From positions 1 through 34,405 of the forward strand of contig JAJFGC010000011.1 in NCBI GenBank assembly GCA_021776345.1: 34,405 nt of DNA. Reading direction: 5' to 3'. Below the pieces are notes generated by a model. The model was not told where the DNA came from and did no database searches. It saw nothing but the letters and a program-made list of their open reading frames with translations. Below are positions 23,006 through 25,951 of this stretch, in pieces; the first letter of the stretch is position 1, and every line of letters starts with the position of its first letter. Both the position numbers and the translations under genes were made by a program. Source of the stretch: Hyphococcus sp. (GTDB taxonomy: Bacteria > Pseudomonadota > Alphaproteobacteria > Caulobacterales > Parvularculaceae).

Positions 23006-23662
23006 TCAAAAACTAAAGGATTTTGGCTTTTCAAATCCGGGCACTACGGCGCTTGTCGCCGCGTCAAAATATTCGGTGAACGCAAAAGTATCGCCGCTGC
23101 GGCAATATAGCCCGCCACGTGAGACGCCGTTTTTGCGAACAATCGCCGCCAACCGACCCCCATCTTTCAGTTGCGCCAGCAAGGCGTCCGGCTGTTGCTC
23201 GATCGCGCCGCCGCCAATGAATATCAAATCGAATGGTCCTTGCTTTAATGCCCCCACCCATGGCTCACTGGTAATCACCGCCGCATTAGAAAGACCAAGC
23301 GACAGCAGGTTTTCCTGAGCTGTGGCGGCAAGAGCCTCATTGTTCTCGATAGAAACCACCATTTCGGCAAGTTGCGAGAGAACGGCTGTCGAGTAGCCGC
23401 TGCCGCAGACTGCATTCAAGATAATATCGTCCGGCTCCGGCGCAGCCACCGCTACTAATTTTGCAAAATCGCGCGCCCGCAGGAGGCGCCGCCCTTCGGC
23501 GTAAACGACTTCCCGCTCAATATAGGCTTGCTCTCTTAGCTCTACAGGTAAGAAAAGCTCGCGAGGCGTTGTTTCCATCGCCAATTGAATGCGAATATCC
23601 GTGACATCATTTGGCCGCACCTGACTGTCGACCATGTGCCGCCGCGCTGCTTGGTAGTCCAT
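23006..23662 (-). CDS. pcm: Protein-L-isoaspartate O-methyltransferase
   Basis: A 218-residue SAM-dependent methyltransferase of the PCMT family, which methylates isoaspartyl residues to repair aged proteins. The N-terminal MDYQAARRHMVDSQVRPNDVTD is typical of the alphaproteobacterial branch. Motif I reads LNAVCGSGYSTAVL (82-95) instead of the canonical VLEIGTGSGY, and ENNEALAATAQENL follows. GGGGAIEQQPDAL-like residues form the later substrate region. The ATG at 23662 has GAGGGCGAA upstream; the longer frame to 23779 overlaps a promoter-like region and is rejected. It lies upstream of tolC on the same strand with a 149-base gap. Confidence 0.88.
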   Translation of the reverse strand: MDYQAARRHMVDSQVRPNDVTDIRIQLAMETTPRELFLPVELREQAYIEREVVYAEGRRLLRARDFAKLVAVAAPEPDDIILNAVCGSGYSTAVLSQLAEMVVSIENNEALAATAQENLLSLGLSNAAVITSEPWVGALKQGPFDLIFIGGGAIEQQPDALLAQLKDGGRLAAIVRKNGVSRGGLYCRSGDTFAFTEYFDAATSAVVPGFEKPKSFSF

Positions 23663-23740
23663 TTCGCCCTCGGATACTGGATAATCTTCACAGCGGCATA
23701 GCGCCGTCCAGCCCCAATCGCAACGCGATAAATTCTCCTT

Positions 23741-23769
23741 TTGACCCGGGCGAGCGCCCACGCTATGAG
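23741..23769 (+). promoter_or_regulatory. Sigma-70-type promoter for tRNA-Cys
   Basis: TTGACC (23741-23746) and TATGAG (23764-23769) are separated by exactly 17 bases and lie 41 bases before the mature tRNA. Both boxes fit the housekeeping consensus reasonably well. Transcription should start near 23776. Confidence 0.6.
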
Positions 23770-23784
23770 AACCGCCCACTCTGG

Positions 23785-23802
23785 AGCCCTCTGGGGCTTT
23801 TT
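23785..23802 (+). terminator. Terminator-like hairpin in the tRNA-Cys leader
   Basis: AGCCC pairs with GGGCT around a four-base loop (TCTG), followed directly by a run of five T ending at 23802. It lies between the predicted promoter and the tRNA. It could attenuate, guide 5' processing, or be a weak end of upstream read-through. Confidence 0.4.
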
Positions 23803-23810
23803 ACGAGGAC

Positions 23811-23884
23811 GGCCACGTGGCGGAGTGGTGACGCAGCGGCCTACAAAGCCGTATACGCCGGTTCGATTCCGGCCGTGGCCTCCA
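23811..23884 (+). tRNA. tRNA-Cys with ACA anticodon
   Basis: A complete 74-base cloverleaf with encoded CCA. The acceptor stem GGCCACG/CGTGGCC is perfect, the D stem is GCG/CGC, the anticodon stem GCGGC/GCCGT, the T stem GCCGG/CCGGC. The discriminator base is U73, a key cysteine identity element, and the anticodon arm and variable loop match alphaproteobacterial tRNA-Cys except that the loop reads CTACAAA where CTGCAAA (GCA) is expected. The anticodon is therefore ACA. No intron or extra arm is seen. Identity as Cys is well supported by sequence, and the A34 is what is odd. Confidence 0.9.
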
Positions 23885-24352: not shown

Positions 24353-25951
24353 ATGCAGTCATCCGACAGGATAAAACGAATTCCCAGCCGCATGGGCGCG
24401 GTTGCGTTGTCGGCTTTGCTTGCCGCTTCCTGCGCGAGTATTGATCAAGAGCTGCTGGAAGCACAGCTGCCGGAAACACCGGACGCCTGGACTGCTGACA
24501 CGGCGGCAACCACGCCTCTTACAGGAGATTGGGTTGCGGCATTCGATGATCAAACGCTCTACGGCTTAATCGACGAAGCGCTTCTGCGGAACAACGACTT
24601 TCTCGCGGCAGCCGCCAATCTCGATCAGGCCCGCGCGAGTTTCAAAATTGCACGCGCGGATTTGTTGCCCTCTTTGAACACGTCATTCAACGCTAGCCGC
24701 AATGCTATCGTTACGGACCCTTCCACTGCGGCAAGCGCGGGCGGCGGGGCTGGCGGCACTGGCGGGCGTGTTCGCGCACAAGATTTGGAAGATCAGTTTG
24801 GTCTCGACACAAATGGTGATGGCACACTCGATGGTCTCGATGTCGATGGTGATGGAATCATCGATAGCGATCTGCCCAATCGACGCCTTTATATCAACAA
24901 CTATTCCCTCGGCGCACAGATACGCTGGGAAATTGATCTGTGGGGGCGGTTAGCAGACGAGACAAAAGCCGCCTATCGCGACGCATCCGCCGCTTATGCA
25001 GATCTCGCCGCAGCGCGCCTGTCGATTGCTGCGCGTGTTTCGCAAGCTTGGTTCGCTTTGATTGAAGCGCGTCAACAACGCGAACTTGCAGAGCGAGATG
25101 TCAGTGCCCGAGAAAGCAATTTGCGCGTCACAGATCGCCGATATGAACGCGGCGTTGCTTCAAGCCTCGACGTTCGATTGTCACGATCTGCGCTGGGGTC
25201 CAGCCGTTCAAATCTGGCGTTGCGTCAACGCCTTGAACTGGAGGCGTCCCGCAGCCTGGAAGTATTGCTCGGCCGCTATCCGGGCGCCGAACTTGAAGCC
25301 GCAGCATCGTTGCCAGAACTGCCAGCGCTCGCGGGCGCCGGCGCCCCAGGTGAGCTGCTTGCGCGCCGCCCTGATTTGGTAGCAGCCGAAGCTCGGATGG
25401 AGGCGTCCGGGCTGCGTGCACGTGCGGCTAGAAAACAAATGCTGCCTCAGATTACGCTGACCCCACAGATCAACACGTCGGGGCCGGTCCTCGCGGATCT
25501 GATCGATCCGGAACGTCTAGCGGGTAGTCTTGCAGGCGGTCTCTTTCAGCCGATCTTTCAAGGCGGTCGCATTCGCGCCAACGCCAAACGTGCGCGCGCC
25601 GTCGCGGAAGCCTCTCTTTATAGTTACGCCCAGACCGTATTGAGCGCATATGAAGAAGCAGAGAACGCCCTGTCGGCAGAAACATATCTCGCGCTACAGG
25701 AAGACGCCCTTCGCCTCGCCTTTGAAGAAGCAGCAGCGGCGGAAGAACTGACCGAACGGCGATACTCAAGCGGTGCGGCCACCATCTTCAACCTACTTGA
25801 TGCTCAAACCCGTCGTATTTCGTCGGAGAGCCAATATATACAAGCCCAGCAGCAACGGGTTTCCAATCGCGTTCAACTTTATCTTGCGATTGGCGGTGAC
25901 TTTCTCACCGAAGAAAAGCTCGCTGCGCTTTCAACGGCGGAAAGTGAGTAA
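24353..25951 (+). CDS. Outer-membrane efflux lipoprotein (NodT family)
   Basis: A 532-residue outer-membrane factor for the RND pump encoded downstream. A lipobox LAASC (Cys27) follows the signal peptide. Two TolC-like repeats form helices and barrel strands, with the family motif WEIDLWGRLADETKAAY (192-208) in the first repeat and FQGGRIRANAKRA in the second. Length exceeds the usual 460-500 because of an insert (about 122-178) at the predicted surface loop between strands. It contains DTNGDGTLDGLDVDGDGIID (152-171), a calcium-loop-like pattern. GAGGGG lies five bases before the ATG. The adaptor gene starts 5 bases after its stop. Confidence 0.93.
   Translation: MQSSDRIKRIPSRMGAVALSALLAASCASIDQELLEAQLPETPDAWTADTAATTPLTGDWVAAFDDQTLYGLIDEALLRNNDFLAAAANLDQARASFKIARADLLPSLNTSFNASRNAIVTDPSTAASAGGGAGGTGGRVRAQDLEDQFGLDTNGDGTLDGLDVDGDGIIDSDLPNRRLYINNYSLGAQIRWEIDLWGRLADETKAAYRDASAAYADLAAARLSIAARVSQAWFALIEARQQRELAERDVSARESNLRVTDRRYERGVASSLDVRLSRSALGSSRSNLALRQRLELEASRSLEVLLGRYPGAELEAAASLPELPALAGAGAPGELLARRPDLVAAEARMEASGLRARAARKQMLPQITLTPQINTSGPVLADLIDPERLAGSLAGGLFQPIFQGGRIRANAKRARAVAEASLYSYAQTVLSAYEEAENALSAETYLALQEDALRLAFEEAAAAEELTERRYSSGAATIFNLLDAQTRRISSESQYIQAQQQRVSNRVQLYLAIGGDFLTEEKLAALSTAESE

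Follow-up and report, generated by a model that had tools for sequence, protein, structure and literature searches.

Described parallels to the gene considered here are the tRNA-Leu(IAG) genes of Streptococcus and other Lactobacillales, which likewise belong to bacterial tRNAs other than tRNA-Arg with an encoded adenosine at the wobble position (A34). In these bacteria the deaminase TadA has taken on tRNA-Leu as a second tRNA: inosine has been shown at position 34, the tRNA serves a four-codon box, and the choice of codons has shifted (PMC13249217, PMC11472039). Motifs known from TadA editing of RNA require a G where base 36 would stand: UACG in E. coli (PMC13170351), UAMG in S. pyogenes (PMC11472039). 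For cysteine, the identity set of cysteinyl-tRNA synthetase (CysRS) comprises G34, C35, A36, and U73 (PMC9976931), and one review calls CysACA universally absent (PMC8007984). In one experiment, 15 A34 tRNAs sharing a common body were tested in E. coli. Inosine was found in 3 of the 15, all in the CNU row, and the tRNA with anticodon ACA was not deaminated; as a reporter it decoded UGU at 3.6%, while any decoding of UGC lay under the detection limit (PMC11066159). The same source tells of a Mycoplasma Thr-tRNA with A34 that reads ACC. Among the titles and abstracts listed in literature searches, we found no report of a tRNA-Cys gene with A34.

We analyzed a stretch of 34,405 nucleotides from Hyphococcus sp. 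(Alphaproteobacteria, Parvularculaceae; assembly GCA_021776345.1, contig JAJFGC010000011.1), hereafter the window. The draft genome to which it belongs as contig C3 (G000) has 3,639,159 bases in 293 contigs and is 96.68% complete and 3.11% contaminated. On its forward strand, ARAGORN names a tRNA-Cys (aca) at 23811-23884, and the Rfam model RF00005 scores the same bases at 66.3 bits (cut-off 29, E 1.7e-12). The gene folds as a cloverleaf tRNA with discriminator U73 and an encoded CCA; its anticodon loop is C32-U33-A34-C35-A36-A37-A38 (CUACAAA), so that C35 and A36 of the usual GCA anticodon are kept and G34 is replaced by A. Modifications aside, the tRNA body tested in E. coli carries this same loop (PMC11066159). 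The coordinates of the anticodon are 23843-23845; those in the earlier note (23844-23846) are one base too high. The structural reading given there, a cloverleaf tRNA-Cys with A34, an arm of alphaproteobacterial type, and U73, is correct, and its view of G34 as a CysRS identity base agrees with the published set (PMC9976931). A free-energy fold was uninformative: its minimum is not a cloverleaf for the window gene or for the GCA gene of the relative G016.

The gene departs from that of its relatives in exactly two bases. A search of relatives matched 56 of 60 genomes, and 30 loci were read including the window's; the other 29 comprise 24 from the genus, 4 from the family, and 1 from the order. 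All 29 carry anticodon GCA, with G34 and G44. The window gene shares length, U73, and 72 of 74 bases with the commonest tRNA-Cys(GCA) of the genus, and differs from it by G34A (23843) and by G44A (23853), a second change that the earlier note had not recorded. That note had proposed aligning the locus in relatives, and had named a G at position 34 in them as evidence against a genuine A34; the G is present in all 29, and among the loci read the A stands in the window only. Private changes in the relatives' tRNA-Cys are few (G008 has two that are paired, while G017 and G029, the latter from the family, have a single one each), alongside a shared G/T variant in the D loop. Two changes on the branch leading to G000 are nevertheless unremarkable in number, since the tRNA-Asn of the window differs at 4 places from that of G013 and at 3 from that of G016, whose copies are identical to each other. 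It is the place of one of the two tRNA-Cys changes that is extraordinary. In a scan of the class that allowed A or G at position 34, inspected by eye, G34 stood in every row but the window's among the matches listed. At least six of the rows listed combine A44 with GCA, which indicates that A44 is tolerated.

The surroundings of the gene are those of the genus. The tRNA-Cys was found in 22 of 22 relatives' stretches, and its neighbors were matched in most of them: on the reverse strand, a protein-L-isoaspartate methyltransferase-like (PCMT) gene at 23006-23779 (19 of 22), and on the forward strand, a putative NodT-type outer-membrane efflux gene at 24353-25951 (20 of 22). These counts rest on best tblastn pieces, and some relatives' stretches end early. 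Upstream of the tRNA, a promoter-like pair, TTGACC (23741-23746) and TATGAG (23764-23769) separated by 17 bases, spans 23741-23769 on the forward strand. The pattern TTGAC, about 17 bases, GCTA(T/A)GAG was seen by eye in every one of the 21 upstream regions compared, the window's among them; a stricter scan for consensus promoters did not report the pair. Because all compared loci have the pair in common, the tRNA-Cys gene looks live, and because the listed frame of the methyltransferase-like gene overlaps the pair at its 5' end, the true start of that gene is probably further in. Shared neighbors, a shared promoter-like pair, and 72 of 74 equal bases mark the window gene as the orthologue of the usual tRNA-Cys of the genus. 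An old pseudogene was considered and rejected, the promoter-like pair being intact; so was contamination of the contig by another organism, its gene order being that of the genus.

Two further features of these loci deserve mention. Between the promoter-like pair and the tRNA lies a terminator-like hairpin followed by a T run (23779-23796, forward strand; 1 found against a mean of 0.3 in shuffles), and look-alikes occur at the same place in G016, G021, G006, G007, and G024, so that the leader may be attenuated or processed. Separately, the last 26 to 27 bases of tRNA-Cys are repeated about 90 bases beyond the gene in G022 (C7, 328206-328232; L053) and in G009 (C5, 8900-8926; L044), as expected of the attachment site of an integrated element.

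The window gene is the only tRNA-Cys that we could find in the draft. The genome has 36 matches to RF00005, and ARAGORN names 36 tRNAs at those loci, one of them Cys. The scan for other tRNA-Cys genes that the earlier note had suggested, run by covariance model, ARAGORN, and BLAST, returned no second copy from the 293 contigs; BLAST with the GCA gene of G016 found the window locus only, without a partial copy. A supplementary copy, as that note had put it, is thus unsupported: this is the syntenic, ancestral locus, and the draft shows none besides it. The draft is, however, incomplete for tRNAs, as genes for Asp-GTC and Ile-GAT, for example, are missing from the 36. The relatives G013 and G016 have more RF00005 matches (48 and 46), and reading covered the 30 best loci in either genome. 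Across the genus, BLAST matched a tRNA-Cys in 25 of 28 genomes including G000, and found none in the drafts of G005, G018, and G026. Of the 24 relatives that gave a match, two have a second gene, which in G024 is another full match and in G009 matches at 87%.

Anticodon ACA is rare in tRNA-Cys well beyond this genus. A strict tRNA-Cys(ACA) pattern was run on one genome per species from 84,980 species, a set that may not include the window's genome. Of its 43 stretches, ARAGORN identified 3 as tRNA-Cys(ACA), 2 as tRNA-Val, and 1 as tRNA-Phe; in the remaining 37 it placed no tRNA at the pattern. The rarity claimed in the earlier note is therefore real. The TRCAAA form of the pattern, with fixed spacing, matches 315 of 385 genomes of the class; given this strictness, some ACA genes will have escaped it. 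All three genes are recognizable as tRNA-Cys, like that of the window. In Shewanella sairae (L079, 3725-3798) three copies stand in a row, and the ACA gene in their center differs from the GCA gene on either side at base 34 alone; further GCA copies lie elsewhere, and the ACA gene is certainly an extra copy. In Scopulibacillus daqui (L062, 1501-1574) it is diverged and stands alone, outside the tRNA cluster. The relatives of this species carry their GCA gene in that cluster in 14 of 14 genomes where tRNA-Cys was read (9 of 26 genomes gave no match), so the GCA gene is likely to be missing from the draft of S. daqui. Its C-share of cysteine codons is 0.525, against 0.346 in the relative G070, with no move towards UGU. 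Unlike the window gene, neither of these two is the syntenic ancestral copy. The third, in the Clostridiales MAG RGIG6040 (L090, 3389-3462), is an otherwise normal tRNA-Cys and the nearest parallel to the window. Neither pattern nor BLAST found a GCA tRNA-Cys in S. daqui or in the MAG.

Codon use in G000 is unchanged. Counts come from 233 long frames, called mechanically in 370,316 bases and in the window. Cysteine is encoded by 535 TGC and 271 TGT codons in G000 (C-share 0.664), by 659 and 220 in G013 (0.750), and by 521 and 215 in G016 (0.708); the C-share of G000 is the lowest of the three genomes for Cys, and likewise for Asp and for Ser-AGY. At shared cysteine sites there is no net shift to TGT, with moves of 2 against 2 among 24 sites relative to G013 (9 protein pairs) and of 4 against 6 among 37 sites relative to G016 (14 protein pairs). 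The zinc-finger cysteines of RadA (codons 10, 13, 24, and 27) are all TGC, as the earlier note had observed; with UGC also the main cysteine codon of the genome, the cell must read UGC well. UGA is the stop codon of 65 of 233 frames in G000; the counts for G013 and G016 are 106 of 228 and 71 of 234, so that UGA is not depleted. Reprogrammed codon use was thus not seen in the comparison with G013 and G016. A young change in decoding need not show a shift of this kind.

TadA and CysRS, too, resemble those of the genus. The only TadA candidate, on contig C164, scores 101.9 bits with PF14437, over the cut-off, and 140.6 bits with NF008113, just under the curated cut-off of 150; its best solved match is 2a8n. 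Compared across the genus, it has two private changes only, both conservative, and a special TadA was not seen. The other two PF14437 matches in the genome are a cytosine-deaminase-like protein on C158 and a further protein on C232. One CysRS is above cut-off. Compared across the genus, seven of its residues are private changes, and three of these (A429T, K430R, and T457R) fall within the final 45 residues; the E. coli enzyme carries A, K, and T at these positions. R427, D436, and D451, which we take to be anticodon contacts, are all kept. Elsewhere in the genus the tail has 0 or 1 private change, with the exception of G003, which has 3 and anticodon GCA, and of G009, which has 18 (G010 was left out, its sequence being shortened). 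The 18 changes in G009 (L161) all affect positions that the genus conserves, as though the last 45 residues had undergone a frameshift or been exchanged for others. The mild excess in the tail of the G000 enzyme may hint, at most, at adaptation of CysRS. The earlier note had pointed to TadA and to the anticodon-binding residues of CysRS as places to look; apart from this hint, both appear ordinary. The structure and rarity that it described stand, and the altered decoding system that it entertained finds little support, with UGC still the main cysteine codon and UGA undepleted.

What, then, is the A at position 34? Among single readings, an error at this base, which the earlier note had named as the simplest alternative, is the most likely. 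We favor, at a little short of an even chance, that A34 as printed is not the base of the working tRNA. The window gene would be the ordinary, live, single-copy tRNA-Cys of the genus; UGU and UGC would be read in the ordinary way by a tRNA-Cys with G34, charged by an ordinary CysRS; and A34 would be a consensus error of the 293-contig draft, or a minority variant taken into the consensus. G44A would be a separate, tolerated substitution. In its favor are GCA in all 29 relatives' loci read, at the syntenic place and behind the shared promoter-like pair, the unmoved codon use, the ordinary TadA, the outcome of the E. coli assay, and the reported absence of CysACA. This reading needs one wrong base and one natural change: if A34 is an error, G44A must be natural, since two independent errors in 74 bases are unlikely. 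Against it stand the presence of two changes in one gene, the few private changes in the relatives' tRNA-Cys, and a contig without the signature of error. In seven conserved proteins of the contig, whose genes are intact, G000 has private changes at 33 of 3,686 otherwise invariant columns, fifth highest of 20 genomes, and G>A accounts for 5 of the 33 (RadA, with only 4 sequences, matches below 80% of length, and the non-genus G029, G031, and G033 were not counted). An error-rich contig was thus not seen in these proteins, a result compatible with an error at one given base. Next in rank, and in our view unlikely, is that A34 is real and that the draft has missed a GCA tRNA-Cys gene which the cell carries elsewhere; the syntenic copy, made redundant, would then have begun drifting by G34A and G44A. 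The essential tRNA genes absent from this draft, the three of 27 relatives' drafts with no tRNA-Cys whatever, the second genes in two relatives, the extra ACA copy of S. sairae, and the solitary one of S. daqui all favor it, and two changes in an otherwise constant gene fit relaxed selection. Any such redundancy would be recent, given an intact promoter-like pair and a gene that has changed at only two of its 74 bases; most relatives have a single copy, at the window locus, and no partial GCA copy lies at the contig ends.

The remaining readings take A34 as real and the gene as the sole tRNA-Cys. It is improbable, to about the same degree as a missing GCA copy, that TadA deaminates A34 to inosine, with UGU and UGC read and some reading of UGA as the price. 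Inosine resembles G, so CysRS would charge such a tRNA, which would permit the continued use of UGC. A TadA gene is present, the loop differs from CUACGAA of the genome's own TadA substrate, tRNA-Arg, at position 36 only, TadA has accepted a second tRNA in Lactobacillales, and the count of three private CysRS changes near the anticodon-binding end is exceeded only by the aberrant tail of G009. The loop has UACA, however, where the known motifs (PMC11472039, PMC13170351) call for G at base 36; a tRNA with this loop escaped deamination in E. coli; TadA of G000 has no private change of note; UGA is not avoided; and G003 matches the CysRS count with a GCA anticodon. Unlike tRNA-Leu(IAG), the window tRNA-Cys has a box shared with a stop codon, unshifted codon use, and an inosine that is putative. 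Far less probable still is an unmodified A34 that decodes UGC through an A34-C3 wobble pair, made easier by a looser hinge (A26, A44, and G27-U43). In its favor, a single branch has gained a change in the anticodon together with another in the 26/44 hinge, and Mycoplasma has its A34 Thr-tRNA; and because the E. coli assay pitted the ACA tRNA against the native GCA tRNA, it is conceivable that UGC would be read weakly where no competitor is present (PMC11066159). This reading clashes with the use of UGC over UGU at about two to one and with the place of G34 in the CysRS identity set, and the occurrence of A44 with GCA elsewhere in the class makes a link to A34 unneeded. The weights given to these four readings are our own judgement. 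On balance, the printed base is more probably wrong, or unrepresentative of the cells, than a sign of novel decoding.

If the base is wrong, the case is a caution for anticodons taken from draft genomes; the novelty of the gene holds for the sequence as printed and would be lost. Should A34 be genuine in a cell with no other tRNA-Cys, that cell would be using an anticodon which has been called universally absent, and the reading of UGC, acceptance by CysRS, and termination at UGA would all need explaining. Were TadA to accept UACA, this would be the first bacterial wobble-inosine tRNA in the box shared by Cys, stop, and Trp. With a real and sole A34, the question of why bacteria avoid A34 outside tRNA-Arg and a few others would become directly testable.
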